Source: Deltaproteobacteria bacterium (GTDB lineage Bacteria; Desulfobacterota; Desulfobulbia; Desulfobulbales; JAJRZW01). From it: a stretch of 64,000 nt of DNA. The notes under the pieces were generated by a model, which did not search any database, was not told the origin of the DNA, and saw nothing but the letters and a program-made list of their open reading frames with translations. The position numbers and the translations under genes are program-made. The stretch covers positions 1-64,000 of the forward strand of contig JAJRZW010000066.1 of assembly GCA_024275015.1 (NCBI GenBank), written 5' to 3'. Positions 1 to 16,517 of this stretch are shown here, one piece after another (the stretch's first letter is position 1; the number at the start of each line of letters is the position of its first letter).

Positions 1-1178
1 ATGATCTTTAACCCCCGGCTGCCGCCTCCCCCATCCGGGCCGGCATCCATCGTGACCAGCAGGGCAAAACGGGGATCGACGGCCGGATAATAGGCGGCCA
101 GGGTCAAACCGCGGTCAGCAGCAATAAACACCATGTCATTTCCCGCCCCGGCATTCATGGCAGTAATAAAATCCCGGCTCACCGCCGCGCTCACCCGTGG
201 TATCATCCCTTTTGGCGCAAAGGGGGCAAAAAACCCCCGATCCCGCCGCCACATGACCTTCTTCAGGTGCGGCACCATCTCACGACCACCGTTTACCGTC
301 CTCGCCAGAGCGGTCAGGACGGAAAGAGGGCTGAGCGCCGCGTGCCCCCCGGTCGCCGCGGCCGGAAGGAAACCGGCAAATCCGGGCCACTGCCGCCGGG
401 AAGAGGTGAAACGGTTAAGCACCCGACCGGAGCCATAGTCCCAGAAACGATTGGGATCAAATCCCGGTACGCATGCCATGGCAAGAATATCTCCGGAGTT
501 CACCGCGATTACTCCGGCCATCACCGCTGCCGCCCCCGAATCCCGCCGTATCCGGGAAAGATCATTTTCGAGCCGCTGTTGCAGGTCAAAATCAACGCTT
601 AAGACCACGTTACCCCGATCCCCGTCTCCGGCAACGCGGTCACGGCGCAGATCCTGATCAAAAAGGGCCTCGATCCCGGAAAGCCCACGCCCCTCGCTGG
701 TAAAACCGATCAGATGCGCCGCCAGTGTTCCGTGGGGATAAAAGCGATGCGGCTCCACGGCCAGATGCACCCCGTGCATCCCCCTGATACTCTCGGCCGC
801 CGCCGGCTTCAGATAACCGGGAAGACGGACATAGGCGTTTTCGTTTCTGATCATGCCGAGAAGCTGTTTTGCATCCATGGACAAAAGCGGGGCCAGACGG
901 GCGGCGGCCGTTTTTATATCATCAAGCTCAGGGGGCATGACATAGACGACAAAAAGATCAAGAGTTGTGGCCGCAAGGACAAAATTACGATCAAATATCG
1001 CGTAACGTCCGGCATTGCCGCGACCAAAATCTATATCATCCCGTCCTCCGTCGGCAACACAGACACCGCGGCCGGACATGATCAAAAAAACAAGGGCCCA
1101 TACCGCAGCCACGGTGAGACCCAGAAAAAAGATGGCGCGGCTGGAAGTATGATATGTCTTTCGCTCCACCTTAGGCAT
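1..1178 (-). CDS. FtsI/PBP2-like division protein lacking transpeptidase motifs (3' end outside window)
   Basis: Gene position after rsmH and an ftsL-like gene, a single N-terminal membrane span (residues 18-35) and a recognisable class B penicillin-binding dimerisation module (GRYAIFDRN near 57-65, FYPHGTLAAHLIGF near 150, GLSGIEALFD, then SVDFDLQQRL) identify it as FtsI-like. The transpeptidase domain starts normally (DILAMACVPGFDPN, to residue 243) but then jumps in about 40 residues to LSPLSVLTALARTVNGG (from 283), a segment that in the family lies about 190 residues further on. The SxxK and SxN motifs are therefore absent. The later region reads NAGAGNDMVFIAADRGLTLA where KTG(T/S) is expected. 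The frame is open for all 392 codons seen. ATG at 1178 lies 19 nt after the upstream stop. It is probably a structural partner in the divisome rather than an enzyme; the true catalytic FtsI may be encoded elsewhere. Confidence 0.8.
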   Translation of the reverse strand, partial: MPKVERKTYHTSSRAIFFLGLTVAAVWALVFLIMSGRGVCVADGGRDDIDFGRGNAGRYAIFDRNFVLAATTLDLFVVYVMPPELDDIKTAAARLAPLLSMDAKQLLGMIRNENAYVRLPGYLKPAAAESIRGMHGVHLAVEPHRFYPHGTLAAHLIGFTSEGRGLSGIEALFDQDLRRDRVAGDGDRGNVVLSVDFDLQQRLENDLSRIRRDSGAAAVMAGVIAVNSGDILAMACVPGFDPNRFWDYGSGRVLNRFTSSRRQWPGFAGFLPAAATGGHAALSPLSVLTALARTVNGGREMVPHLKKVMWRRDRGFFAPFAPKGMIPRVSAAVSRDFITAMNAGAGNDMVFIAADRGLTLAAYYPAVDPRFALLVTMDAGPDGGGGSRGLKI

Positions 1179-1197: not shown

Positions 1198-1593
1198 TCA
1201 CCGCAGCCGGATCAACTGTCTTGATCGCGGCCGGAAAAGCCCCCGCCGCGCGGCAATTTTCTCAATCCTTCCCCGGGCCGAAAGCCTTTCCATCTTAAGG
1301 GCAAGAACCCGATTTTCGACAAAAAGTGCCTGGTAACGCACCTCTTTTCGACCAAGCTCCTCAAGGCCGGCCCCGATCCGCCAACAAAACCAGATACTGG
1401 CGCTCACCGAGACCAGAAAAAATATCAGCAGAAGCGGTAGCCAGATGGCGCTGCCAAGGACACCTCCCCGCCGCCGTACCAGACGATGGCTCCGAGTCCA
1501 CGAAACGGGACCGTAATAACGGCTCAGCACCCGGGATCGGAAAATTGCGCGGCCCGTAATCTGGCGCTTCTTGATCTGGGATTTTGCCTGCAT
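1198..1593 (-). CDS. ftsL: FtsL-like septum-formation protein
   Basis: A small protein of 131 residues between rsmH and the ftsI-like gene, the usual place of ftsL. It has a basic cytoplasmic N-terminus, one membrane span (about residues 50-70, rich in Leu/Ile/Phe/Val) and a following charged stretch with heptad-like hydrophobics (LEELGRKEVRYQALFVENRVLALKMERL region), as expected for the periplasmic coiled coil that pairs with FtsB and FtsI. Sequence conservation in FtsL is low, so the name rests on topology and position. The ATG at 1593 overlaps rsmH by 70 nt; a GTG at 1530 overlapping the rsmH stop would give a 110-residue protein and is an equally reasonable start. Confidence 0.75.
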   Translation of the reverse strand: MQAKSQIKKRQITGRAIFRSRVLSRYYGPVSWTRSHRLVRRRGGVLGSAIWLPLLLIFFLVSVSASIWFCWRIGAGLEELGRKEVRYQALFVENRVLALKMERLSARGRIEKIAARRGLFRPRSRQLIRLR

Positions 1594-2432
1594 TCAAGTT
1601 CCCTGGCCGTTACCGGCTTTCCGGTAAGCGGCTGATATTTTTTTCTATCGGCAAAGGTCCTCTTGACCAGACGGTCTTCCAGAGAATGAAAAGAGATGAC
1701 GCAAACCCTGCCACCGGGCTTAAGCAGCCGCGGCAGAGATGAAAGCAGGGTCTCAAGGTTATCAAATTCACGGTTGACCGCGATCCGCAGGGCCTGAAAG
1801 GTCCGGGTGGCGGCATGGATTTTTTTCGGATGAAAACGCCGGGGTACGGCACGATAAACTATCTCGCCAAGCTCCCGGCCGCTCTTTATCTCTCCTGCCG
1901 CCCGGGCGGCGACAATGGCGGCGGCTATCCGCCGGGCCTGCCTTTCCCCACCATAGTGATAGATCATGTCGGCAAGCTCTTCGGCGGAACATTGATTGAC
2001 CAGATCGCGGGCCGTTTCTCCGCCGCGGTCATCCATCCGCATATCAAGGCTTTCCGCATCGGCAAAGCTGAACCCCCGGCCGCCGTCGAGCTGCAGAGAC
2101 GACAGTCCGAGATCAAGTAGAACCCCGTCAACCGGGCCGATGGCTATACTCGACAGCACCTCTTCGGCGTGGGCGAAATTGCTCCGCACCAGCCGGGCTC
2201 GTTCTCCAAATCGGGCAAGCCTTTTTTCCGCCATTGCCAATGCCTCCGAGTCCCAATCAATCCCGACCAGTATCCCGTCAGGGCCGCTGCGTTCAAGGAT
2301 CAACTCCGCGTGACCGCCAAGACCAAGATTACAGTCCAGGTAAATTCCACCGGCAACCGGAGAGAGCAGGGCCAAGGTCTCTTTCGGCAACACCGGAACA
2401 TGAACCACAGCCGGACCTCTTCCTTCCGGCAT
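1524..2432 (-). CDS. rsmH: 16S rRNA (cytosine1402-N4)-methyltransferase RsmH
   Basis: SAM-dependent methylation of C1402 in 16S rRNA, the decoding-centre nucleotide. The 302-residue protein shows HVPVLPKET at the start, the SAM-binding loop LDCNLGLGGHAE (around 31-42), GVLLDLGLSSLQLD in the middle, SFHSLEDRLVK near residue 250 and the closing NPRSRSARLRAA, all in the family order and length (about 310). The ATG at 2432 is chosen because it overlaps the mraZ stop as TGATG, the typical coupling in this cluster; a longer reading to 2579 only runs back through mraZ in another frame. It is the second gene of the mra operon. Confidence 0.95.
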   Translation of the reverse strand: MPEGRGPAVVHVPVLPKETLALLSPVAGGIYLDCNLGLGGHAELILERSGPDGILVGIDWDSEALAMAEKRLARFGERARLVRSNFAHAEEVLSSIAIGPVDGVLLDLGLSSLQLDGGRGFSFADAESLDMRMDDRGGETARDLVNQCSAEELADMIYHYGGERQARRIAAAIVAARAAGEIKSGRELGEIVYRAVPRRFHPKKIHAATRTFQALRIAVNREFDNLETLLSSLPRLLKPGGRVCVISFHSLEDRLVKRTFADRKKYQPLTGKPVTARELECRQNPRSRSARLRAAQFSDPGC

Positions 2433-2905
2433 CAACCGATACCCAGTTCCACAAAGGCGTCTTCCACCTCGGCAAAATCCTCCCTTGAAGGCTTCTTCAA
2501 GTCGTTCCAGACCTTGTGATCCCATATCTCCATATAGGTGGTCATCCCGGCGGCAACCACTTCTTCCCTGATTGAGCAATCATTCCGGGCCAACTGCGGC
2601 AGCAGAATCCGTCCCTGTTTGTCAATGGGATAGATATTCGCGCCGCTGACAATATATTTAAAGGTGGCGTAAACATTTTTGCTCAAAGCCCCGGCACTCC
2701 GCACCCGGGCCACGGTTTCATCCCATTCCGTCAGCGGATAAAGACGGATACAGTGGTCAGCCCACGGCACCACCACCAGGGAAGTGTCATCGTTCTTGTT
2801 GAGCTGGTCACGGAAACGGGCCGGGAGATTAAAGCGGCCCTTGTTGTCAAGGACATGCTCCGATCTTCCCATGAAACCGTATCGCTTCAAACCACCATCC
2901 CGCAT
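2432..2905 (-). CDS. mraZ: Cell-division operon regulator MraZ
   Basis: DNA-binding regulator (AbrB-like double fold) that represses its own division/wall operon and also interacts with RsmH. The 157-residue protein has the two swapped-hairpin repeats: GRSEHVLDNKGRFNLPARFR (about 13-32) and NIYPIDKQGRILLPQLAR (about 89-106); the KGR and QGR signatures are the family hallmark. The ATG at 2905 follows an AAGAAGG ribosome site by 7 nt; MraZ proteins usually begin near the GRSEH segment, so this one has an N-terminal extension of about ten residues. It is the first gene of the operon, directly downstream of its own operator and promoter. Confidence 0.96.
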   Translation of the reverse strand: MRDGGLKRYGFMGRSEHVLDNKGRFNLPARFRDQLNKNDDTSLVVVPWADHCIRLYPLTEWDETVARVRSAGALSKNVYATFKYIVSGANIYPIDKQGRILLPQLARNDCSIREEVVAAGMTTYMEIWDHKVWNDLKKPSREDFAEVEDAFVELGIG

Positions 2906-4978: not shown

Positions 4979-5004
4979 GCCAGCCCGTTTTTCAACGGGC
5001 TGGC
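4979..5004 (-). repeat. Repeat family R1, short hairpin copy
   Basis: GCCAGCCCG-TTTTTCAA-CGGGCTGGC forms a perfect 9-bp stem. On the minus strand the CAGCCCGTTGAAAAACGGGCTGG core matches copies at 25623, 52989 and 56236, and the following minus-strand bases (AGCGACGCATTGACGCGCC) resemble the GC-rich spacer of those copies. The gspH stop codon overlaps its end. Confidence 0.7.
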
Positions 5005-5522
5005 TATAACGCCTCATCCGGCCCGAGCTTGATTGCCCCCCCGGCGCTGATCGCCATGGTGGCAACGGCTTCATCTTTACAGACGAATTCAAGGGCCAGC
5101 GGGGTCGCAATCCCGGCCGCGATAAAAGTAACCTCAACGCTGTCAACGCCATCGGGAAAAAAAACCCGGCAACCCCGGGGGATGGTACGCGCGAGATCTG
5201 CAAGGTCGGCGAGGTCGGCGGCGTCCTCCCTGCTGATTTCGACCAGATAATGGTCAGGATATATCCTGAGAGCCAGCGGCCGGTAACGCAACACCGCCTC
5301 GTCACGCACCAGTTCCATGGTCATCTTCAGGCGCTGGATCTCATTTCTGCAAGCGCGGCAATCGGATATCGGGGTCAGCGATATATAGCCGATCAACACC
5401 GCCACCACCAGCAGAACCACCAGGATCTCGATCAGGGTGAATCCCCCCTGGCCCACTTTCTCACTTTCCCATCCGCCCTCACGGCGAAGTCGTGTCCTGC
5501 CAGCTGCCGATATCAGCGTCAT
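5004..5522 (-). CDS. gspH: Type II secretion minor pseudopilin GspH
   Basis: Minor pseudopilin of the type II secretion pseudopilus. A prepilin leader ending in [20 protein letters not shown] is followed by a short beta-rich domain. The N-methylation/cleavage site with Glu at +5 is intact. The 172-residue reading from ATG 5522 overlaps the end of gspG by 44 nt and gives a 27-residue leader; a GTG at 5456 with a four-residue leader is the alternative. Two nearby cysteines (DCRAC) could form a disulfide. It is the last gene of the operon; assignment to GspH rather than another minor pseudopilin rests on position after gspG and on length. Confidence 0.8.
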
Positions 5523-5940
5523 ACCTTTCGCCGCCGGGGCGGCCGTCGGCACCGAGGGAGAGGATGTCCATCCGTCCATGGATACCGGGATTGAGATAAA
5601 TATAGGGATTACCCCAGGGATCAAGGGGTAATTGTTCGAGATATCCCCCCTGCTTCCAGTTCCCCGGCTGCGGGTCGCCTTCGGGCTTGTTGACCAGGGC
5701 CGCGAGACCCTGGTCGCCGGAGGGATAAAAACCGTTGTCAAGGCGATAGAGCTGCAGGGCGCTCTCGATCACCCGGATATCATTCTTTGCCTTCACCTGC
5801 CGGGCCTGGTCGGGACGGTCCATTATCCGGGGAACAATGAAGGCGGCAAGAATCGACAAAATCACCACCACCACCATGACTTCAATCAGGGTGAACCCCT
5901 CGCAACCGCAAAATCGTTTTCGTTTTTCACTCTTACCCAT
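5479..5940 (-). CDS. gspG: Type II secretion major pseudopilin GspG
   Basis: Major subunit of the secretion pseudopilus. The 153-residue precursor has a basic leader cut between G15 and F16 ([21 protein letters not shown]), Glu at +5, then the GspG-specific [33 protein letters not shown] and the C-terminal calcium-site loop [16 protein letters not shown]. Start ATG 5940 has an AAGGAT ribosome site 7 nt upstream. It is placed unusually after gspN and separated from it by 142 nt holding an inverted repeat, so it may have its own promoter, which would suit its need for high expression. Confidence 0.96.
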
Positions 5941-6020
5941 ATTTTATCCTTAATCATGAAACCGTGAGCATTCGGGAACAACACAACCGCAGCGAATTGG
6001 AACTTTTTTACCTTATATTT

Positions 6021-6075
6021 CAGACCGTTGCATTAAATAATACCCCTTTTGTCAAACCTTTTTTCAACGGTCTGT
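6021..6075 (-). repeat. R1-type inverted repeat with possible gspGH promoter
   Basis: CAGACCGTTG and CAACGGTCTG form 10-bp inverted ends around an AT-rich 31-nt centre. On the minus strand the first bases, AACAGACCGTTGAAAA, match the R1 end. The centre contains TTGACA (6055-6050) and TATTAT (6042-6037); these two are too close, but TTGAAA (6067-6062) lies 19 nt from TATTAT. A gspG promoter here is plausible but not shown. Confidence 0.5.
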
Positions 6076-6082
6076 TCTCCTT

Positions 6083-6799
6083 TCACTTCCGCACCCGGCC
6101 GTGATAATCAATCTTCACCCGGCCGTCAGGACCGGTTCGGCCGATAAAGGCAAAAATCGCAGCCTGGTCAGGGGTAGGCCGGGCCGTACCCCTGATCCGC
6201 ACCCGGCCGTCGGCAAAAAGCCGCAATTCCGCGGCCAGATCAAGCCCCCGCTCCCCCCTGATCCTGGCGTTGATACCGCCATCACCGCTGCCAAGGGTCA
6301 TCCGCAGATCCCCAAGAGCGGAATAGGGACCAAAACCGGCGGAACGCCATTGCAGGTCACCGCCGGCGCTGTTTACCCGGCCGTTTCGCAAAATCATATT
6401 CACCTTTGCAAAAATAAACTCACCGCTCAGGGGCATGGGCGACCTGAATCCCGCGGCCGCGAGCCGGCCGCTTACCCGGGAGACACTGATCCCCCCTGAT
6501 GACAGAGAAATCACCCCGGCAAGCTTTCCGGCGGCTGAAACAAGGCTGAAATCCACCCTGAGCCGCCCCTCGATAAGGGCAAGGGGATCAAGGTCCCAGG
6601 TAAAGGTATCCACCCTGAGCAACGGGGTGGATAATCCCCGGAGTCGGCCGTGACGCCAGTTCCCCTGGACCAGGACGGGACGCAACCCGGCCACCCTGTT
6701 TACCCCCAGATAAGGCCACAACATATCCACGGGCAGAAACAAAAAAAGAAAAAAGAGATAAAACCCCAGAAAAACAAAGATATATTTATACAATCTCAT
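6083..6799 (-). CDS. gspN: Type II secretion protein GspN
   Basis: Accessory inner-membrane protein of some type II secretion systems, of uncertain role. The 238-residue protein has one N-terminal span (about 8-28, very rich in Phe/Leu) and a long beta-rich periplasmic part with the GspN-like pattern VQGNWRHGRLRGLSTPLLRVDTF and many alternating hydrophobics. The ATG at 6799 is chosen because it overlaps the gspM stop as ATGA; a longer reading only adds a basic stretch read through gspM. It ends the gspC-N block; gspG follows 142 nt later. Confidence 0.85.
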   Translation of the reverse strand: MRLYKYIFVFLGFYLFFLFLFLPVDMLWPYLGVNRVAGLRPVLVQGNWRHGRLRGLSTPLLRVDTFTWDLDPLALIEGRLRVDFSLVSAAGKLAGVISLSSGGISVSRVSGRLAAAGFRSPMPLSGEFIFAKVNMILRNGRVNSAGGDLQWRSAGFGPYSALGDLRMTLGSGDGGINARIRGERGLDLAAELRLFADGRVRIRGTARPTPDQAAIFAFIGRTGPDGRVKIDYHGRVRK

Positions 6800-7245
6800 C
6801 TTTGTCCCAGCAGACGGACCTCGGCCTTGACCATGCCGCCGTCCTGTTCGTTTACCCGGCACGCCCGCACCACCAATCCGATTTTGCCGACCCTGGCCAG
6901 CCAGGCGGCAAGGGCGGCAAACCTGACCTCGCCAAACCAGACCCGCACACTTTTGTCCCCGTCCGCCGCGACCCTGGTGACCGCGGTCCGGATACCGGCC
7001 TCGCCCACGCTCCGGTCAACCAGAGTCAATAACGATCCGCTCGCCATCACCGTTTTCTCCCGGCCCCGGCTGGCAACGGCATTTTTCATCCAGGCGAGAT
7101 CGACCTCAAGACGGCGGGCGGTCTCGGCCCGGCGACCGATGGCCCGGCGCACCGGCCCGACATGGACAAGATAGAGAGCAGCGAACAACAACAGGACCAC
7201 AAGCGGGACCAGGATGTTCTTATGGGTGAAAATCAGGGTTTTCAT
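6796..7245 (-). CDS. gspM: Type II secretion assembly-platform protein GspM
   Basis: Inner-membrane assembly-platform protein that pairs with GspL. 149 residues: one N-terminal span (about 11-28), a helical stretch (RRAIGRRAETARRLEVDLAWM) and a compact C-terminal ferredoxin-like domain, the usual GspM plan. It overlaps gspL and gspN by 4 nt on each side (ATGA), so translation of the three is coupled. The primary sequence of GspM is weakly conserved; position between gspL and gspN supports the call. Confidence 0.85.
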   Translation of the reverse strand: MKTLIFTHKNILVPLVVLLLFAALYLVHVGPVRRAIGRRAETARRLEVDLAWMKNAVASRGREKTVMASGSLLTLVDRSVGEAGIRTAVTRVAADGDKSVRVWFGEVRFAALAAWLARVGKIGLVVRACRVNEQDGGMVKAEVRLLGQR

Positions 7246-8423
7246 ATCTCCCCTCCCAGATCAATACGAAGTTCCCCCCGGACCCCTGACCCGGCCTTGC
7301 TGATCTGGCCGGTAGACACCTTCATCCCCGGAGAAAGCGTAAGTGACGCCCGGAGGCGATCCATCTCGGCAAGAGAGGCAAGCCGCATAACTATGACCAG
7401 ACGGCGGCCGTCAAAACGCAGCCGATGAAGATGAAAACCGTTGGCCCGCAAAAGTTCCGGGGCGATTTCGGCCAGAAGGGGGAGGAAACGGTCACCGGCG
7501 TTGGCGGATTTTTTCAGTCTCTGCTCCAGTTGCAGCCTGGGATCAACCAGTATTGCCGGACCGGGAAAGGCCTTTTTGTAAAGACTGGTCATCGCCGCCC
7601 GGGTCTCTTCCGTCTGCCGCGTAAAGCGGAGATAATCAATGCCGTCATTAACAAACAACAGCCCCAGCCATAACAGGGCAAGGATCAGGGGCAGAACAAA
7701 TGCGGAGGGAAACAAACGGCCACGGCGGCGGTACTCGCCGCGCAGCAGGTTCAGGGGATGTTCATCCGGGCCGCGGCTGAACAGGCGAGGCCACGGTTCC
7801 GGGGCCTTCACTATTCGCGCCCCGGGGAGGCAATCCGGCTCATCCCCCTCGCCGCCGCAGGCATAAACCACCATGGGGCCATCCCGGTCGCCGCGCAGAC
7901 GCAGCCAGACGTCAAGGTTCTCCCGTTCCATGGCCACGCCGGTTCCGTCGAAGTCAAGAGCAAGAAAACGCTCCGGAATCAGGGCAATGACCAGGCCGGC
8001 ATCATCCCCCCGGGGCAGGGCCAGAAAATCGGCAATAAGCAGGTCGGGGATCAGAGCGGAATCCTCAAGCCGGGACAGAATCGCGCTGATCCGATCCCGA
8101 CTGATCGCCGCGACCAGAAGCCGGTCTGGATGATCGGGAACCGGAGTGCTGACCACGTGGAGTTCGTCAACCCCGCCGGCCAGACGTTCTTCAAGAACAA
8201 AAGGCACCGCCCGCAGGCTCTGACTCTCCCGTCCCGGCGGCCGGGAAATGATGGAGACCATGACGTCCTCGCCGCCCACCAGGACCACAAGCCGATCGTG
8301 ATCAAGGGCGGCAATCTCCGCCAGGGAAGAATGACCGTAACGACATCCTTCCGGGGCCGAAACAACCCAGAAGAATGCCTCCGCCTCAATCTGATCGACA
8401 AATACACGTAAAACTCTGCTCAA
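7242..8423 (-). CDS. gspL: Type II secretion assembly-platform protein GspL
   Basis: Bitopic protein that binds the GspE ATPase on its cytoplasmic side. 393 residues: an actin-like cytoplasmic domain (about 1-230, including FVLEERLAGGVDELHVV), one span near 240-258 (FVLPLILALLWLGLLFV) and a periplasmic ferredoxin-like domain. The start is a TTG at 8423, overlapping the gspK stop as TTGA, with AAGGTGA about 8 nt upstream. ATGA overlap with gspM downstream. Confidence 0.9.
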   Translation of the reverse strand: MSRVLRVFVDQIEAEAFFWVVSAPEGCRYGHSSLAEIAALDHDRLVVLVGGEDVMVSIISRPPGRESQSLRAVPFVLEERLAGGVDELHVVSTPVPDHPDRLLVAAISRDRISAILSRLEDSALIPDLLIADFLALPRGDDAGLVIALIPERFLALDFDGTGVAMERENLDVWLRLRGDRDGPMVVYACGGEGDEPDCLPGARIVKAPEPWPRLFSRGPDEHPLNLLRGEYRRRGRLFPSAFVLPLILALLWLGLLFVNDGIDYLRFTRQTEETRAAMTSLYKKAFPGPAILVDPRLQLEQRLKKSANAGDRFLPLLAEIAPELLRANGFHLHRLRFDGRRLVIVMRLASLAEMDRLRASLTLSPGMKVSTGQISKAGSGVRGELRIDLGGEI

Positions 8424-9355
8424 GAGGATTCACCTTTCATCTCAATCCGCCCCCCGCGGAAAAAGGCCCGCCGCATAACCGCCACCCCGTGACTGCGGTC
8501 AACAAGGGATTCCAAGGCCCAGGCGCCATAACCATTGACCGCCTCGGCCCGGATAAGGAAAAAATCACTGCCCAGCACCAGTCCGGCACCGGTCAAGCCC
8601 TTGTCCTTCCAGACATCCAGGGCGAGAAAATCGGTCATGGAGGCAAAACCATCATCCGGCACCATTCCGTCAACCGCGTCAACATCCACCCCGGCGGCAA
8701 GACTCGCCAGAACCCGCGGCCCGGCGGTATTGACGTTGACCGGGGTCGCCGCCGGCAGGGCGGAGATATTGCCCCGGAGGCAAGAATACCCCTCCGGTTC
8801 CATATAACGCAAGTAAGCCAGGCCGGAGAGGTCATAAACGGCGCGATTGGCAGGCCGGGCCAGACTCCCCTGCTCCTGATAATAATCCGCCTCCGCCCCC
8901 ATGGGCCGGACCTCGTCGTCGGAATCAAGCCAGTCTTCAAGGGCGACCAGAGCCAGAGGCTCAACTCCACAGATATCAAAAAGCCGCAGGAGCCGTTCCC
9001 GGGTCAATTTTTTCAAAGCGTCGTTGCCCAGCACGAGATTGTTAACGTTTACCCGCCCCTGCATATCAATTATCCGGCCGCTGATAGTGCCGGAATCGGT
9101 TTTCACCGGGGCAAGCTCACGGGCCCAGTCCTCGGCGCGGTTATCGGTCGAACCCCGGCCGCGGTCACGCCTTAACACCACCCCGGCCCAGGCCTCAAAA
9201 CCACCCAATAATTCCACCGCCCGGTCATGGGCGATCAACAGGGCGCTGCGCCGGATCGAGGTCGCCTGACTCATGACCATCGCCGCCACCAGAAAACCGG
9301 CGATAACAACAATCATCAGCACCAGCAACAGGCCGCTGCCCCGTTCTCCCCTCAT
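8420..9355 (-). CDS. gspK: Type II secretion minor pseudopilin GspK
   Basis: Largest minor pseudopilin, thought to cap the pseudopilus tip with GspI and GspJ. 311 residues. The leader ends RGERGSG|LLLVLMIVVIAGFLV; as in other GspK proteins the mature protein lacks the Glu at +5. The body contains the GspK helical signature DMQGRVNVNNL, ALEDWLDSDDEVRP, AEADYYQ and PVNVNTAGPRVLASL. Coupled by ATGA to gspJ and by TTGA to gspL. Confidence 0.93.
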   Translation of the reverse strand: MRGERGSGLLLVLMIVVIAGFLVAAMVMSQATSIRRSALLIAHDRAVELLGGFEAWAGVVLRRDRGRGSTDNRAEDWARELAPVKTDSGTISGRIIDMQGRVNVNNLVLGNDALKKLTRERLLRLFDICGVEPLALVALEDWLDSDDEVRPMGAEADYYQEQGSLARPANRAVYDLSGLAYLRYMEPEGYSCLRGNISALPAATPVNVNTAGPRVLASLAAGVDVDAVDGMVPDDGFASMTDFLALDVWKDKGLTGAGLVLGSDFFLIRAEAVNGYGAWALESLVDRSHGVAVMRRAFFRGGRIEMKGESS

Positions 9356-9978
9356 CGGCCCACCCCGATATAGAACAGGCGCGAGACCGTGCCGTAACCG
9401 GCAATATCAACCGTGACCCTTACCCCGGTCGGGACCCGGGCCTGATCTGAACTTTCCTTCCCGGCCGCGGCCTCATCCCCCTTCCCGGCAACGGGCAGTA
9501 CGGTGATGGATTTGACTCCGGTGATGAGGTCGCGACCGCTCATTTCTCCGTCCCGCCCCTGAACAAACCGAAGCCGCCGCGAAATAACCCCGTCTTTAAG
9601 GACATAAAGCACCCGCAAAGGCCCGGGGGGCATCCGCGCCGCCCTGACCCCGGATCTGGTAATCGCGAGGGTGGGAAAGGGATCGGCGCTTAGCTTGAAC
9701 GGTTCCATGACCCCGTCCGGGCCATTGATCTTCCGCGGCACCATAACCCGCAGGTCCTGATCGATCAGGGTGAAAAATATCTCAACCCGGGCCAGGGCCG
9801 TCTGACGCTTCTGCATGGCCTCTCTGGTTGCGGCAAGGGCATTGAGCGAACGCGCCGCCGTTACCCCGATGATCGCCATGATCGCCACCGCCACCATGAC
9901 TTCAAGAAGGGTGAAACCACCCCCGGCGGCACCGCTGTTTCCCCCTGTCTTCATCATTCCGCCCCGCTGATCGTCCAT
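9352..9978 (-). CDS. gspJ: Type II secretion minor pseudopilin GspJ
   Basis: Minor pseudopilin of the tip complex. 208 residues with leader ending GGG|FTLLEVMVAVAIMAIIGVTAAR, Glu at +5, then LNALAATREAMQKRQTALARVE and IDQDLRVMVPR, typical of GspJ. The start at 9978 abuts the gspI stop; ATGs at 9957 and 9954, after a GGGGCGGA stretch, would give a shorter leader and cannot be excluded. The middle is rich in basic residues and includes a Lys/Asp/Glu/Ala loop (GKGDEAAAGKESSD) not obviously conserved. Confidence 0.9.
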   Translation of the reverse strand: MDDQRGGMMKTGGNSGAAGGGFTLLEVMVAVAIMAIIGVTAARSLNALAATREAMQKRQTALARVEIFFTLIDQDLRVMVPRKINGPDGVMEPFKLSADPFPTLAITRSGVRAARMPPGPLRVLYVLKDGVISRRLRFVQGRDGEMSGRDLITGVKSITVLPVAGKGDEAAAGKESSDQARVPTGVRVTVDIAGYGTVSRLFYIGVGR

Positions 9979-10350
9979 TTAATTTTCCGGCGCCGCCGGG
10001 ATAAACGATGTCATACGCGCCAGGGACTCACCATCAGGGGTATCACTGACTTTTACCTCCACCCGCACCACCCCGGGATATGAAGTAGAAAAGCTCTCCG
10101 TCCGCCAGTAAAAGGGGCGACCGGCCTCTTCCGCCTCGCCGCTATGTCGGGCGGTATCGCCGAGCCATGCCGGTCCCAGACGCAAAGCCGCGATCCGGTT
10201 CGCGGCAACCCAGTGCGCCAACACCCGGGCCTCGACCTCGGCCCCATCGGCGACCAGACGACCCTGGATCCTGAGCATTGAGGCCAGGGCAATAGCCACC
10301 ACCGCCAGGGCCACCAATACCTCAAGAAGAGAAAAACCCCTGCGACCCAT
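9979..10350 (-). CDS. gspI: Type II secretion minor pseudopilin GspI
   Basis: Minor pseudopilin of about 123 residues. Short leader MGRRG|FSLLEVLVALAVVAIALASMLR, Glu at +5, then AHWVAANRIAALRLGP, the GspI-type helix end, and a small beta domain. ATG 10350 overlaps the gspF stop (TGATG); a GTG three bases upstream is possible. Immediately followed by gspJ. Confidence 0.92.
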   Translation of the reverse strand: MGRRGFSLLEVLVALAVVAIALASMLRIQGRLVADGAEVEARVLAHWVAANRIAALRLGPAWLGDTARHSGEAEEAGRPFYWRTESFSTSYPGVVRVEVKVSDTPDGESLARMTSFIPAAPEN

Positions 10351-11549
10351 CACCTTACCAGCCGGTTGAGGTCAAATATAGGTAGCATCACCGCCAGGAC
10401 ACTAAACAACACCACCCCGCCCACCGCCAGGATCAGGGCCGGTTCCACCACCGCCATCAGCAACGCCAGACTGCGCTCTACCTCCACCTCAAGACCGGCG
10501 GCGGCGACGAGGAGCATCCGGTCAAGAGAACCGCTCTTCTCGCCACTGCCGATGAGCTGCAGACTCACGGACGGAAAATCACCAATGGCGGCAAGGCCAT
10601 CCCTGAGACCGCCGCCCTCCCGCACCCGGGCCGCGACCTCTGCCAGCCGGGCCGCCATAACCGGACTTTTAACCGCGGCCCCGGCTCCGGCCATGGCCTC
10701 GTAAAGCGGCACCCCGCTCCTGACCATCATCCCCAGGGTGCGACAATAACGGCCGCAATTCACCTTGCGCACCAAGGGCCCGAACAGGGGCAGGCGCAGG
10801 AGTAAATGATGAAAAAAAAGCCTTACCGCCGCAAGACGAAAAAGGGTAATTCCGCTAATCAGCAATACCGACAGGACAAGGACTAAAAGGCCGCCATGCT
10901 GCCGCAACATCTCACCGCCGCCCATAAGCATCCGGGTAAGAACCGGGAGATCCTGATGAAGGCCCTTGAATATCCCCGCCACCTGCGGCACCACCCGGAC
11001 GAGGAGAAAGCCAACCACCCCGGTGGACACCATCACCAGAATCAGAGGATAAACCATGGCCGCGGTCAGACGGTTACGCATGGCCACCCCGGCCTCAAGA
11101 TGGTCGGCCAGAAGTTCCAGGATCTGATCAAGACCGGCACCGGCCTCGCCGGCACGGACACTGGCGACGTACACCGGGGGAAAGAGATCAACCGCGGCCA
11201 GGGCATCGGCAAAGGAATGGCCTTCGAGAAGCGAGGAACGCACCGCCCCCAGGATTCGCGGCCAGAAACGATCTTCCATCTGGGCGGCGCAGGCGGCGAT
11301 ACTCTCCTCAATGGTGGAGCCGGAACCAACCAGCAGGGCCAGTTGCCGGGTGATGACCGCCAGTTCCGTCAGCGGCAGCCGTCGACGCCGCCAGCGATAT
11401 TCAGCCCGCGTCGCCACCTCCCTGACCTCGACCGGGAACAGCCCCTCGCGGCGGAGATCGTGGCGGCAATCACGAAGACTGTCCGCCTGCCTCACCCCGC
11501 GACGACGACGCCCCCGGGGATCAAGAGCGACATAGGAAAAGGCGGCCAT
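10350..11549 (-). CDS. gspF: Type II secretion inner-membrane platform protein GspF
   Basis: Polytopic core of the inner-membrane platform that couples GspE to pilus assembly. 399 residues in two homologous GspF halves: LAVITRQLALLVGSGSTIEESI, followed by RAGEAGAGLDQILELLADHLE, and the second half YCRTLGMMVRSGVPLYEAM and GSGEKSGSLDRMLLVAA; three spans near 165-190, 215-240 and 370-395. ATG 11549 is chosen over the in-frame TTG at 11552 because GGGGG lies 7 nt before it. Confidence 0.95.
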   Translation of the reverse strand: MAAFSYVALDPRGRRRRGVRQADSLRDCRHDLRREGLFPVEVREVATRAEYRWRRRRLPLTELAVITRQLALLVGSGSTIEESIAACAAQMEDRFWPRILGAVRSSLLEGHSFADALAAVDLFPPVYVASVRAGEAGAGLDQILELLADHLEAGVAMRNRLTAAMVYPLILVMVSTGVVGFLLVRVVPQVAGIFKGLHQDLPVLTRMLMGGGEMLRQHGGLLVLVLSVLLISGITLFRLAAVRLFFHHLLLRLPLFGPLVRKVNCGRYCRTLGMMVRSGVPLYEAMAGAGAAVKSPVMAARLAEVAARVREGGGLRDGLAAIGDFPSVSLQLIGSGEKSGSLDRMLLVAAAGLEVEVERSLALLMAVVEPALILAVGGVVLFSVLAVMLPIFDLNRLVR

Positions 11550-11552
11550 CAA

Positions 11553-13040
11553 TCACCCCCCGCCGCTTGAGCCCAGAACCCGAAGCAGTTCAACCAGGGA
11601 GGTCTCGCCACTTTTGACCTTTGTCAGGCCGGCATCAAAGATGGTATTGCGCCCCTGATGAGTGGCAATCAAATGCTCTGACTCACCCTGATGCACCATC
11701 TGCCGCAACTCGTCATCCAGGATCAGGATCTCGTATATCCCGACCCGGCCGCGGTATCCCTGACCGTCACAGGACTCACAGCCCTCCGGTTCCCAGACCC
11801 TTTCCATACTGACGGCCGCGGCCATCTTCTCCACCGCCGCCGACTCGGCCCGGCTGATCTCCCGCGCCCTGCGACAATCAGGACAGAGGCGACGCACCAG
11901 GCGCTGGGCCAGAACCCCGGCCAGCGACGAAGAAAGGAGATAGGGCTCCACCCCCATGTCCCGCAGACGGGTAAGGGCCCCGACCGCGGTGGAGGTATGA
12001 AGGGTGGAAAAGACCAGATGCCCGGTCAGACTCGCCTGTACCGCTATTTCAGCGGTCTCGATATCCCGCACCTCGCCGACCATGACCACATCCGGATCCT
12101 GGCGCAGGATGGCCCGAAGGCCCCGGGCATAAGTCATCCCGGTCTTTAAATTAACCTGGCTCTGGCCGATACCCTCGAGATGATACTCAATCGGATCCTC
12201 AACGGTCATGATATTACGGCTCTGCTCATTCAGCTTTGACAAAGCGGCGTAGAGGGTAGTGGTCTTACCGCTGCCGGTGGGGCCGGTGACCAGGACAATG
12301 CCGTCTGAACGGGCGAGAAGGGAAGAAAAACCGGCAAGCACGTCCCCTTCCATCCCCAACTGCTCAAGATCAAGACGCCCCTCCTGCTTGTCTAATATCC
12401 GCAGGACGATACGTTCCCCCATGGCCGCGGGGATAGTCGAGACCCGGACATCAACCGGCCGCCCGGCGATAAGAATCGAGATCCGCCCGTCCTGGGGCAG
12501 GCGTTTTTCAGCAATATCAAGGCGGGCCATGATCTTTACCCGCGCCGCCAGCAACGGCGCCAGGGCAAGATAGGGCTCAAGCACCGTCCGCAGGACCCCA
12601 TCAATACGGAACCGAACCCGGAGCTTGTTCTCAAAGGGTTCGATATGGATATCCGAGGCACAGGCCCGTACCGCCCGGGCGAGAAGACCGTTGATGAGAC
12701 GGATCACCGGGGCGTGTTCATCGCTCTCTAAAATCTCCTGGGCCCCGGCAATGGAGGCGGCAAGGTTATCGAGGTCAAGGTCTTCCTCAATCTCCACCGT
12801 CTCAAGCTCGACCCCGGAGCCGCCCTCGTAAAGATCACGCAGCCGCCGGTCGAATTCCGCCGTGCTCACCACCCCGGCCGCAACCGGCCGGGCCAGAAAA
12901 CGCCGCGCCTCCTGCAGGGATTCCGCCGCCGCGTCATCACGGCAGAAAATCCTGACCGTATCCCCCCCGTCGGCCACCGCCAGCACCCCGGCCTCCCGGG
13001 CAAAGGCAAAGGGCAGCCTTATGGGATTTGCCCCGGACAT
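11553..13040 (-). CDS. gspE: Type II secretion ATPase GspE
   Basis: Hexameric ATPase that powers pseudopilus assembly. 495 residues with a short N1-like domain, Walker A GPTGSGKTT (253-261), the Asp box GEVRDIETAEIA, the His box LHTSTAVGALTRL and the zinc-binding tetracysteine element CPDC...CESC (C-x2-C, about 30 residues, C-x2-C). The CASDIHIEPFENKLRVRFRIDG motif before the ATPase core is also intact. The N-terminal domain is shorter than in enteric GspE, as in many deltaproteobacterial versions. It starts directly after the gspD stop (TAA-ATG). Confidence 0.96.
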   Translation of the reverse strand: MSGANPIRLPFAFAREAGVLAVADGGDTVRIFCRDDAAAESLQEARRFLARPVAAGVVSTAEFDRRLRDLYEGGSGVELETVEIEEDLDLDNLAASIAGAQEILESDEHAPVIRLINGLLARAVRACASDIHIEPFENKLRVRFRIDGVLRTVLEPYLALAPLLAARVKIMARLDIAEKRLPQDGRISILIAGRPVDVRVSTIPAAMGERIVLRILDKQEGRLDLEQLGMEGDVLAGFSSLLARSDGIVLVTGPTGSGKTTTLYAALSKLNEQSRNIMTVEDPIEYHLEGIGQSQVNLKTGMTYARGLRAILRQDPDVVMVGEVRDIETAEIAVQASLTGHLVFSTLHTSTAVGALTRLRDMGVEPYLLSSSLAGVLAQRLVRRLCPDCRRAREISRAESAAVEKMAAAVSMERVWEPEGCESCDGQGYRGRVGIYEILILDDELRQMVHQGESEHLIATHQGRNTIFDAGLTKVKSGETSLVELLRVLGSSGGG

Positions 13041-14996
13041 TTATTGCCCTTCCCCGGCCCTGGCCGGCAATACCGGGCCGGTTTCATGATCAGCCCCGGG
13101 GATATCACGCGCCCGGGCGTTAAAGGCCTGCTGCAGACGACGAAGGTAATCGTATTTATCAAAGGTGATGGTATCACTTTTCCGGTTATCGCGGATAATC
13201 ACCGGCCGGAGAAAGACCATCAGATTTTTGCGGCTGCGGGAGCTTGAATTGTAGCGAAACAGCCAGCCCAACACCGGAATACTGCCAAGCAGCGGCACCC
13301 GGTGTTCACTCTCCTTCAATTCGTCACTGATCAGGCCGCCGAGGACCAAAATCTTGCCGTCATCCACCAAAACCGAGGTTTTGATGCTTCGGGTACTGGT
13401 ACTTTCCAGCCCGGCAATATTTGAATTGGCTGAGTTGGCAAGGTTTGACACCTCCTGTTCTATATCGAGACGAACGGTGTCGCCCGCGCTGATCTGCGGC
13501 CTGACTTTCAACTTCAGCCCCACATCCTTGCGTTCATAGGTGGTGAATGGATTACTGGGATTGGTGCTGCCGGTGGAGGTATAACTGCCGGTGGCAAAGG
13601 GGAGATTATTACCGACCACAATCTCGGCCTCGTGGTTATCGGTGGTCAGAATCGACGGGGTGGAAAGGATGTTGTTATCGGCGTTGCTTGACAGGGCGGT
13701 AAGGAGTCCGGCCATGTTCAGGACCCTGGTCCCAAGAATATCGGCGGAACCACGAAGATAACCAAGACTGAGACCGGAAAGGGCGGCCATACCGGTAACC
13801 GCGTTCAGGGGATCGGCGCTGACGGCGTTGATCCCGGGATTTGTGGTCGAGGTAAAATTGGTTCCGCCGATAACCCCGTTCTCATCGGAAGAGGAAATTC
13901 CGCTGGCCCGCCACTGCACCCCGAGTTCGCTGCCGGCGCCGTTGGAGACCTCGGCGATGATCGCCTCGATCAACACCTGGGGTCGGCGGATATCAAGCTT
14001 GCGGATCACCTGGCGCAGGTCGCGCATCACCGCCGGCGGCGCGGTGATCACCAGGGAATTGGTGTTCTCGTCAGCAACAATGCTGAGGCGTTTATCCCCG
14101 CCCCGAACCACCTTATTGCGCAGGGCTGCGGGCGTAGTCGCCTTGGCGCGCAGCGGCACCGCCTCAAGGACCTTGACCAGATCAACCGCGCGGGCGTATT
14201 TCAAATACACCACCTGGGTGGAACCCTCATCCTTAACCGGAGTATCAAGATTTTTTACAATCGCCTTGATCTGCAGCAAGCGGAAATCACGCCCGGCGAT
14301 AATCAGGGAATTGGTACGCTCATCGGCGATTACCCGCAGGTCGCTCCTTTTTCTTCCGCCGGTGGTGTCAATACTCTGCACCACCCGGGCCAGGTCTCCG
14401 GCATCGGCATATTCAAGCGGGATAATCTCGATATTACCGCTCTTGCCCTGATCAAGCCCGGCGACAATGGCGGCAAGGCGTCGCGCATTGGCGGCCCGGT
14501 CGGAAATAATCAGTGTATTGCTGTCGGCAACCGCAGCGAGATAGGCCTTGGGCGGAACCAGAGGGCGCAGAACCGAAATCAGGCGCTCGGCCTGGATATA
14601 CTTGAGCCGGATCAGACGGGTAACAAAGGCATCGGCGGGATTTTCATCATCAACGGCCAGTGGCTGGCCACTGGAACGGGCCTTGTCCATGGGAATGATC
14701 TGGGTGACCTGCGTCCCCTCCACCGCCGCGAGACGATAGACCTTGAGCAGGGACAGAAAAAGTGGATAGACCTCGTCACGACGCACCGCCTTGGACGCGA
14801 TCACCGTAACCTTGCCCCGCACCGAGGGATCAATAACAAAATTACGGCCGGTGAGTTTTGCAATGGTGTTGATCACCGTCCGAATCTTGACATCCTGAAA
14901 GTTCAGGCTGACCATATCGGCCGCAGCCGCCGCAATCAGGGACCGGAGGAGAAAAGAAAGAAGCAGAAATACAAAAAGCAGCAACCGCGGTCGCAT
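13041..14996 (-). CDS. gspD: Type II secretion outer-membrane secretin GspD
   Basis: Secretin that forms the outer-membrane channel. 651 residues: signal peptide (RLLLFVFLLLSFLLRSLIAAAAA), N0 domain (VSLNFQDVKIRTVINTIAKLTGRNFVID), three KH-like N1-N3 repeats (RLIRLKYIQAERL, EIIPLEYADAGDLARV, VVYLKYARAVDLVKVLEAV), and the C-terminal secretin domain with VGNNLPF, the VGLKLKVRPQI strand, LDIEQEVSN and the end VPLLGSIPVLGWLF. ATG 14996 has GGAGG 7 nt upstream; an in-frame TTG at 15002 overlaps the gspC stop. No lipoprotein pilotin is visible nearby. Confidence 0.96.
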   Translation of the reverse strand: MRPRLLLFVFLLLSFLLRSLIAAAAADMVSLNFQDVKIRTVINTIAKLTGRNFVIDPSVRGKVTVIASKAVRRDEVYPLFLSLLKVYRLAAVEGTQVTQIIPMDKARSSGQPLAVDDENPADAFVTRLIRLKYIQAERLISVLRPLVPPKAYLAAVADSNTLIISDRAANARRLAAIVAGLDQGKSGNIEIIPLEYADAGDLARVVQSIDTTGGRKRSDLRVIADERTNSLIIAGRDFRLLQIKAIVKNLDTPVKDEGSTQVVYLKYARAVDLVKVLEAVPLRAKATTPAALRNKVVRGGDKRLSIVADENTNSLVITAPPAVMRDLRQVIRKLDIRRPQVLIEAIIAEVSNGAGSELGVQWRASGISSSDENGVIGGTNFTSTTNPGINAVSADPLNAVTGMAALSGLSLGYLRGSADILGTRVLNMAGLLTALSSNADNNILSTPSILTTDNHEAEIVVGNNLPFATGSYTSTGSTNPSNPFTTYERKDVGLKLKVRPQISAGDTVRLDIEQEVSNLANSANSNIAGLESTSTRSIKTSVLVDDGKILVLGGLISDELKESEHRVPLLGSIPVLGWLFRYNSSSRSRKNLMVFLRPVIIRDNRKSDTITFDKYDYLRRLQQAFNARARDIPGADHETGPVLPARAGEGQ

Positions 14997-14998
14997 AA

Positions 14999-15820
14999 TC
15001 AATCCTCCATACGGTAAACCCGGGTCCGCACCTGACCGTTACGGCCAAAGCGCACGCTTACCTCTTTACTCTTCATCAATTCCCCGGCCGCCTTCAGGGC
15101 CTGGGCCGGATTACTCAGAGAAATGCCGTTGATCTCATATACTATATCGCCGGACTCAAGCCCAACTGTTTTAAGCAGTTCTTTATCCTTGCTCAGGAGA
15201 CGGAAACCAACCCGGCCTTGTTTGTCCTTCACCGGCTGGGCCCGAACCTTTTGCCCGAGAGCGGGAAGATTTTTCATCCACTTACGCCGATACCCCGCCG
15301 ACACCCGCCAGGACTGATCGTTAACCACAGCCGCGACAGTATTATCGTCGCCCTCAACCTCAAGTACCTCGTGACGGCCGTTACGGATAATCTCGATCCG
15401 GTCCGGCAGCACCCGTTCCACCACCGCCCCGCCGCTTATCCGGTCACCGACGGAGACCACCTGTTCTTCGTCGCCCTTCTTCGCCGCGACAATGGCATAG
15501 GCGACTCCGTTGCTCGGCACCACCGTCCCCCTCAACACCAATGCCAGCGAGGTGGGAGGAAGTTTCTGCACAACCGGGGCCGGTTGCCCCGCCGCTGTTC
15601 CGAAGAGCATGGCCGCGGCCCCGGGCAATTCCGCCTTCTTCACCACCGGTTTCGGCACCACCACCGCGGTCACCGGCAGCGCCGGACGCCACGCCGCCCT
15701 GATTTTCCAGGTAAGATCGGCCGCGCTCAGGGCGAGGAGAATTAAAAACGCCAGGTTAACCACCACCATGAGCCGATTCGCGGTTTTCTCCCGAAAAATG
15801 ACAAAAGAGGCAAATTTCAT
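14999..15820 (-). CDS. gspC: Type II secretion inner-membrane protein GspC (PDZ-type)
   Basis: Connects the inner-membrane platform with the secretin. 273 residues: one span (about 18-40), an HR domain (PPTSLALVLRGTVVPSNGVAYAIVA... VVSVGDRISGGAVVERVLPDRIEI, about 93-160) that binds GspD N0, and a C-terminal PDZ domain (GFRLLSKDKELLKTVGLESGDIVYEINGISL). The ATG at 15820 is chosen because upstream sequence in frame belongs to the neighbouring gene. It follows that gene by 10 nt, so both are probably co-transcribed. Confidence 0.93.
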   Translation of the reverse strand: MKFASFVIFREKTANRLMVVVNLAFLILLALSAADLTWKIRAAWRPALPVTAVVVPKPVVKKAELPGAAAMLFGTAAGQPAPVVQKLPPTSLALVLRGTVVPSNGVAYAIVAAKKGDEEQVVSVGDRISGGAVVERVLPDRIEIIRNGRHEVLEVEGDDNTVAAVVNDQSWRVSAGYRRKWMKNLPALGQKVRAQPVKDKQGRVGFRLLSKDKELLKTVGLESGDIVYEINGISLSNPAQALKAAGELMKSKEVSVRFGRNGQVRTRVYRMED

Positions 15821-15830
15821 GGGATGCGAC

Positions 15831-16517
15831 CTAGATAACCACCGTTCGCCGGATATGATTGACGATCTCGTCGGCATCGTCAAAAACGTCGAATACCAGG
15901 AGGTCATCCCTGGCGATCTTGCCGGTGGCCAGGAGTTCATCCCGCATCCAGTCCACCAGACCACCCCAGAATTCCTTTCCCACCAGAACCACCGGGAATG
16001 ATTTTATCTTCCTGGTCTGCATCAGGGTCAGGGCCTCGAAGAGTTCATCCATGGTCCCGAAACCTCCTGGCATACAGATAAAGGCCATGGCGTATTTGAT
16101 GAACATCACCTTGCGGACAAAGAAATATTTGAAGTTCATCGGCATATTGGTAAAGGGATTGGGCTCCTGCTCAAAGGGCAGGTCGATGTTGAGACCGATG
16201 CTCATCCCCCCGACCTGGGCCGCGCCCTTGTTTGCCGCCTCCATGATCCCCGGACCGCCGCCGGTGATAATCGGATACCCGGCCTCGGCCAGCCGGCTTG
16301 AGACCTCGACGGTAAGACGGTAATAATGGTCACTCTCATCGTTGCGGGCCGAACCGAAAAAGCTGACAGCCGGACGATTCAGATCGGAGAGGGTATCAAA
16401 ACCGTCAACAAACTCACTCATGATCCGGAAAAGACGCCACGAATCTCCGACATTCATATAATCAAGCCAGTACTGCTGCCGTTCGTCACTCACATGGGGG
16501 CCAAAACATCTGTTCAT
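15831..16517 (-). CDS. LOG-family nucleotide 5'-monophosphate nucleosidase
   Basis: Member of the LOG family (lysine-decarboxylase-like Rossmann fold), whose members release ribose 5-phosphate from nucleoside or cytokinin monophosphates. The two diagnostic motifs are present: ITGGGPGIMEAANKGA (about 75-92) and PGGFGTMDELFEALTLMQTRK (about 140-160). Older annotations that call such proteins lysine decarboxylases are wrong. ATG 16517 has GAGG 6 nt upstream. Lying 10 nt before gspC it may lead the secretion operon, but no functional link is known. Confidence 0.9.
   Translation of the reverse strand: MNRCFGPHVSDERQQYWLDYMNVGDSWRLFRIMSEFVDGFDTLSDLNRPAVSFFGSARNDESDHYYRLTVEVSSRLAEAGYPIITGGGPGIMEAANKGAAQVGGMSIGLNIDLPFEQEPNPFTNMPMNFKYFFVRKVMFIKYAMAFICMPGGFGTMDELFEALTLMQTRKIKSFPVVLVGKEFWGGLVDWMRDELLATGKIARDDLLVFDVFDDADEIVNHIRRTVVI

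Follow-up and report, generated by a model that had tools for sequence, protein, structure and literature searches.

A probable FtsI pseudoenzyme in the dcw cluster of Desulfobulbales that lack FtsW

The FtsW–FtsI pair is usually held to be the universal synthase of the septal wall. The systems closest to the protein described here are FtsI/PBP3 (E. coli FtsI, P. aeruginosa PBP3) and SpoVD, with which it shares a place in the dcw cluster, after ftsL and before murE, and the order anchor, pedestal, transpeptidase remnant, PASTA. It differs from them in having no SxxK, SxN or KTG motif, no FtsW partner and no DRxGR loop, and, in the genus of the window, in a deletion of about 125 residues.

Three published cases bear on such a protein. 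In Bacillus subtilis, catalytically dead PBP2B supports division, with PBP3 substituting in cross-linking (PMC5656894); the likeness is a dead septal class B PBP (bPBP) that supports assembly of the division complex as another PBP cross-links, but PBP2B(S309A) is a laboratory point mutant with FtsW present, whereas the state described here is natural, order-wide and without FtsW. Clostridioides difficile likewise has no canonical septal SEDS–bPBP pair, with RodA–PBP2 as its sole growth pair and class A PBPs available, and its dcw-encoded SpoVE/SpoVD have kept their enzymatic activity but now serve sporulation (Shrestha 2023, PMC10693644); in the Desulfobulbales, by contrast, ftsW is gone, FtsI is conserved but dead, and FtsA and FtsQ are kept. 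Finally, ftsW, ftsN and zipA were reported absent from two cable bacteria (Electrothrix) and two Desulfobulbus species, in a study that treats FtsI as a present and active septal enzyme in those four Desulfobulbaceae (Geerlings 2021, PMC7873302). That work shares with ours the absence of FtsW, but does not notice the lost FtsI active site or the link between the two losses.

The window analyzed here is a stretch of 64,000 nucleotides (G000:C47:1-64000) from a draft Desulfobulbales genome (GCA_024275015.1). Downstream of mraZ, mraW and a weakly matching ftsL lies a single open frame that runs past position 1 (Table 1). Because the contig begins at this position, the missing C-terminus of the encoded protein is an assembly edge rather than a stop codon. 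The gene has the expected dcw position between mraW–ftsL and murE; in the window genome murE opens a separate contig (C18), and the continuous order is seen in a same-genus relative, G001, and in other relatives. Elsewhere in the window, directly after typA, a type II secretion-like cluster (pseudopilins and GspC/D/E/F/K/L-like proteins) occupies positions 5004–15964.

Table 1. Coordinates of the ftsI-like gene, its parts and its dcw neighbors in the window.
Feature	Position	Strand	Basis or remark
pseudo-ftsI, for a class B PBP homologue of the dcw cluster that lacks the catalytic motifs	3..1178	-	392 codons; contig edge cuts 3' end
Signal anchor / transmembrane helix, about aa 14-36	1071..1139	-	sequence
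Pedestal (dimerization) domain, aa 58-178	645..1007	-	match to solved FtsI/SpoVD
Shortened anchor loop, aa 179-189, without RDAxGR motif	612..644	-	alignment
Initial transpeptidase-fold strands as far as PGFDPN, aa 190-243	450..611	-	Pfam and SpoVD match
Deletion junction, 32 residues vs 156 in active FtsI/SpoVD; SxxK and SxN gone	354..449	-	alignments
Kept transpeptidase helix LSPLSVLTALARTVNGG, within aa 276-298	285..353	-	Pfam and SpoVD match
KTG-side strand remnant without KTG, aa 335-392	3..176	-	alignment
ftsL	1198..1593	-	weak Pfam match and expected position
mraW (rsmH), coordinates of the listed ORF; translation probably starts further downstream	1524..2579	-	ORF list, Pfam
mraZ, dcw cluster start	2432..2905	-	ORF list, Pfam

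The original prediction, of a frame intact from the anchor through the dimerization module with none of the three catalytic motifs, was borne out by the open frame, by Pfam, by alignment to SpoVD and by G001. The window protein has a transmembrane anchor and a dimerization/pedestal domain (PF03717, PBP_dimer, 7e-9; matches to solved FtsI/SpoVD), and its match to the transpeptidase domain spans only 35 aa and stays below the cut-off. Among solved structures it matches C. difficile SpoVD (7rcz) best and FtsI structures (including FtsI 25hr) next. Between the landmarks FDPN (aa 240-243) and LSPLSVLTALARTVNGG (aa 282-298), SpoVD advances from residue 231 to 388 while the window protein advances just from 243 to 276, a net deletion of about 125 residues spanning SxxK and SxN; a loss had been foreseen at this place, at a somewhat larger size of about 150 residues. 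In the alignment none of SxxK, SxN and KTG is left. The protein also misses the NCBIfam cut-offs of FtsI type (88 of 688 bits for spoVD, 50 of 737 bits for the FtsI subfamily), and it is not a misplaced MrdA/PBP2 (76.6 of 455 bits for TIGR03423), the genuine MrdA being encoded on G000:C35 (681 bits), adjoining rodA. AlphaFold, given the G001 and window proteins as a two-row alignment, returned a pLDDT of 34, too low for the model to be of use.

G001 (JALWTY010000225), the sole relative found in the scan of genome contigs, encodes the same shortened FtsI at 45% identity to the window protein. There the gene runs through to its stop codon, directly before murE, which murF follows, and the protein bears a PASTA domain (Pfam 3.8e-9), which in the window falls beyond the contig edge. 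The same architecture carried through to a proper stop indicates that the deletion in the window protein is not a local sequencing error. Between the two genomes, differences at third codon positions clearly outnumber those at the other positions, and dN/dS is 0.37 for FtsI overall, 0.34 for its pedestal and 0.32 for what is left of its transpeptidase domain, compared with 0.28 for ftsQ, 0.22 for ftsA, 0.21 for murE and 0.14 for murB, ratios that are only indicative since dS is saturated in this pair (1-2).

Loss of the active site extends across the order. Taking E. coli FtsI as the motif reference (S307xxK, S359SN, K494TG), we aligned 53 further Desulfobulbales FtsI proteins (one taken as Desulfurivibrio alkaliphilus), and SxxK and KTG are absent from all of them; five keep S-x-N at the SxN position. 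A KTGT at residue 538 of the G040 protein does not align with KTG. Over all pseudo-FtsI compared, the catalytic serine column holds S in one of 60, there without the lysine, versus 22 of 22 active FtsI, and KTG occurs in no pseudo-FtsI. The 53 genes are open and sit at the same dcw place, and most encode proteins of normal length (about 610-790 aa, ~650 aa). No frameshifted copy was found among the 55 order frames read, two of which are cut by contig ends; the metagenome-assembled genomes (MAGs) G005 and G029 gave no dcw FtsI match and stand outside this count. The state of motif-less ftsI with no second SEDS gene spans 58 genomes in 15 families, mostly draft MAGs, and the conclusion is based on many of those together with complete genomes that show the same state (G004, G011 and G048, and G040 in two contigs). 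Full-length members of the order are likewise motif-less, which rules out the deletion itself as the founding event. As judged by these alignments, the deletion in the window genus came late, as the extreme case of an order-wide loss of catalysis that is older than itself; the prediction had made it the cause of the missing SxxK and SxN. A relative whose frame contains the missing motifs would have refuted the prediction, and none was found among the 53 proteins and G001.

FtsW is gone as well, a point beyond the original prediction, and both septal catalytic functions are hence missing. No second SEDS gene was found in the 58 order genomes: 57 have one, and G039, a 99% complete genome, has none that we could find. 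Relocation of FtsW to another site is ruled out for the order by this count. Two genomes show two SEDS matches that are pieces of one gene. In the single-contig genome G011 the sole SEDS gene, rodA (G011:C1:137697-138757), is matched as two abutting stretches (a frameshift or sequencing error), and in G043 the fragments are, by our reading, a single gene interrupted where contigs end. The SEDS protein of the window genome is RodA by NCBIfam, with 389 bits above the cut-off of 336.7 for RodA and 302 bits below that of 337.5 for FtsW, and its gene lies directly after mrdA in a mreC–mreD–mrdA–rodA run whose mrdA product passes the MrdA cut-off. On contig 18 the dcw cluster continues as murE–murF–mraY–murD–murG–murC–murB–ftsQ–ftsA–ftsZ; ftsW was not found between murD and murG, and other order members have the same gene order without it. 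A search of the window genome for a full-length FtsI, as had been suggested, returned none: apart from pseudo-FtsI, PF00905 is represented by MrdA and by two class A PBPs of 634 and 1166 aa, all three with intact motifs.

Several features of these loci deserve mention in their own right. In the window genome an ORF of ~62 aa with a zinc-ribbon-like pattern (CxxCG...SHGLCDHC) stands between murD and murG at the ftsW place (L047, about 10768-10958), and murD itself is read as two overlapping frames of 189 and 300 aa (L047 10956-12364, G000:C18), a frameshift or assembly error. At L154, L155, L157, L119 and L120, murE and murF share one frame of about 980-1070 aa that looks like a MurE–MurF fusion; this single-frame case is seen in several FtsW-less genomes and, outside them, in G113. 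The 1166-aa class A PBP of the window genome (G000:C33, L037 1995-5492) carries a large insertion in its transpeptidase domain, as does its counterpart in G001 (1147 aa), and is a candidate septal synthase.

What remains of FtsI is unevenly conserved. Mean pairwise identity in the pedestal is 0.38 among pseudo-FtsI versus 0.39 among active FtsI, and in PASTA 0.46 versus 0.33, whereas it falls to 0.23 versus 0.46 in the transpeptidase domain and to 0.17 versus 0.27 in the transmembrane segment with the first periplasmic helix. The anchor loop is shortened in pseudo-FtsI, with a median of 45 vs 51 residues over the part aligned. Its motif, (R/K)DAxGR (D212-R216 in E. coli FtsI), occurs with variants counted in 21 of 22 active proteins but is absent from 59 of 60 pseudo-FtsI. 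In the FtsWIQBL structure the FtsI pedestal binds FtsL and the FtsI transmembrane helix packs against TM8-TM9 of FtsW (PMC7614612), and R213/Y214 of E. coli FtsI are reported to contact extracellular loop 4 of FtsW (PMC10390529). Set against these contacts, the conservation pattern suggests that the FtsW-facing surfaces have decayed and the FtsL-facing surface has been kept.

We read 44 dcw loci from the phylum for the presence of ftsW and the motifs of FtsI. Wherever both are readable the two agree without exception: at all 22 loci where a SEDS gene occupies the ftsW place, FtsI has SxxK, SSN and KTG, and at ftsW-less loci with a readable ftsI position none of the three motifs occurs in any (locus G111 is cut before ftsI, so its FtsI status is not readable). 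Outside the order, 112 of the 141 sampled genomes of the phylum have two or more SEDS genes. Six others (G070, G071, G074, G113, G140 and G192), whose loci belong to those 22, have one SEDS gene each, which is ftsW in the dcw cluster beside an active FtsI; in these, RodA rather than FtsW seems to have been lost. FtsI of ftsW-less genomes outside the Desulfobulbales is graded in length (643, 569, 560, 538, 457, 440, 340, 334, 329, 267 and 248 aa). By our reading of the sequences, essentially anchor and pedestal alone are left in G079 and G157, and in G075 the pedestal is lost and the anchor and a C-terminal stretch are left; Pfam finds no domain in the G075, G133 or G079 proteins.

A tree built from six dcw proteins of 43 genomes (2239 columns; FastTree, quick IQ-TREE) requires three changes of FtsW state, two of them forced by well-supported branches. 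A single FtsW-less grouping is rejected (AU p=0.007), a rejection that vanishes (p=0.10-0.12) on omitting either G069 or the G075/G107/G133 group. These topologies support the view that FtsW was lost at least twice; the independent pairs are too few to allow a sign test.

Because the FtsI active site and FtsW are lost throughout the order members examined, the dividing wall of these bacteria must be built by other enzymes. We consider it probable that FtsI of these bacteria is a pseudoenzyme, most likely a non-catalytic adaptor of the divisome, with septal cross-linking done by RodA–PBP2 and/or class A PBPs. As in a pseudoenzyme, a conserved part of the fold persists without catalysis and under purifying selection. 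The comparison of genomes shows ftsW and the FtsI active site both lost, and in the ancestor of the Desulfobulbales the FtsW–FtsI pair would thereby have ceased to be the septal synthase. The retention of FtsI in the dcw cluster is put down to a function that its anchor, pedestal and C-terminal PASTA, the non-catalytic part, still perform under selection, as conservation, low dN/dS and intact frames show. Most likely FtsI would still be seated on FtsL/FtsQ in the divisome, as adaptor or checkpoint. Septal glycan synthesis and cross-linking would fall to RodA–PBP2 (MrdA) and/or class A PBPs recruited to midcell, and in the window genus the useless transpeptidase core would then have been largely deleted. 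The prediction of a non-enzymatic scaffold kept by selection, rather than a pseudogene, holds in its non-enzymatic and selected parts, given the 45% identity and dN/dS to G001, the 53 order members and the conserved pedestal and PASTA; the scaffold role itself is putative. Counting against an adaptor, the pedestal is gone in some other FtsW-less lineages, and erosion of the protein there to 248-340 aa suggests a dispensable or changing role.

Between the two candidate synthases we lean slightly to RodA–PBP2, since no other SEDS–bPBP pair remains and the divisome retains the components by which such pairs are regulated. Tentatively, dead FtsI could pass the divisome signal to RodA–PBP2, so that one SEDS–bPBP pair builds both side wall and septum. 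In that handover, which we would likewise put forward with some reserve, the FtsQ–FtsL–FtsI core would no longer drive a synthase of its own, and this would have arisen independently in the order and at least one more lineage. A comparably tentative alternative is that a class A PBP took over septal synthesis, as in C. difficile, which without canonical FtsW/FtsI uses PBP1 for its septum (PMC10693644), leaving pseudo-FtsI and FtsQL vestigial or only regulatory. The window genome has two class A PBPs with intact motifs, and class A PBPs are also present in the order genomes listed. However, FtsQ, FtsA, FtsZ and pseudo-FtsI are all conserved, and what led C. difficile to keep its dcw synthases, their activity in sporulation, does not hold for the Desulfobulbales.

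Slow pseudogenization, with ftsI decaying without function since the loss of FtsW, would account for the graded erosion in other FtsW-less families (643 to 248 aa) and for the ~125 aa lost in the window genus, but it is improbable given the lack of any frameshifted copy among the 55 order frames, retention across 15 families, pedestal and PASTA conservation equal to that of active FtsI, and the dN/dS of 0.37. We are equally doubtful that the altered transpeptidase domain of the full-length members has acquired a new function in binding or catalysis: the region still spans ~330 aa in most order members (median span) and five keep S-x-N, yet identity in the domain is just 0.23, low-complexity inserts replace the KTG region, G000/G001 can dispense with the domain, and elsewhere it is shorter. 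That catalytic FtsI and FtsW merely lie on contigs missing from the MAG is scarcely credible, for although the window genome is 93% complete and a contig end cuts its ftsI, the same state recurs in complete genomes (G004, G011, G040, G048) and over the 58 genomes and 15 families, with continuous gene order around the missing ftsW.

The absence of FtsW from four Desulfobulbaceae was known before; the dead FtsI is apparently new, as we found no report of a natural FtsI pseudoenzyme in the open-access literature searched. It is wrong to annotate these Desulfobulbales proteins as active FtsI transpeptidases, and FtsI-selective beta-lactams are expected to lack a septal target of the FtsI kind in the order. 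The state is natural and stable in 15 families, including cultured strains, with FtsW gone, FtsI dead yet conserved, and FtsZ, FtsA and FtsQ remaining, and it is related to that of cable bacteria, judged by their published gene content. Evolution has here separated the structural role of FtsI from catalysis, which predicts the FtsI surfaces that serve FtsW versus those that serve FtsL, and the question of which synthase can replace FtsW–FtsI becomes directly testable.
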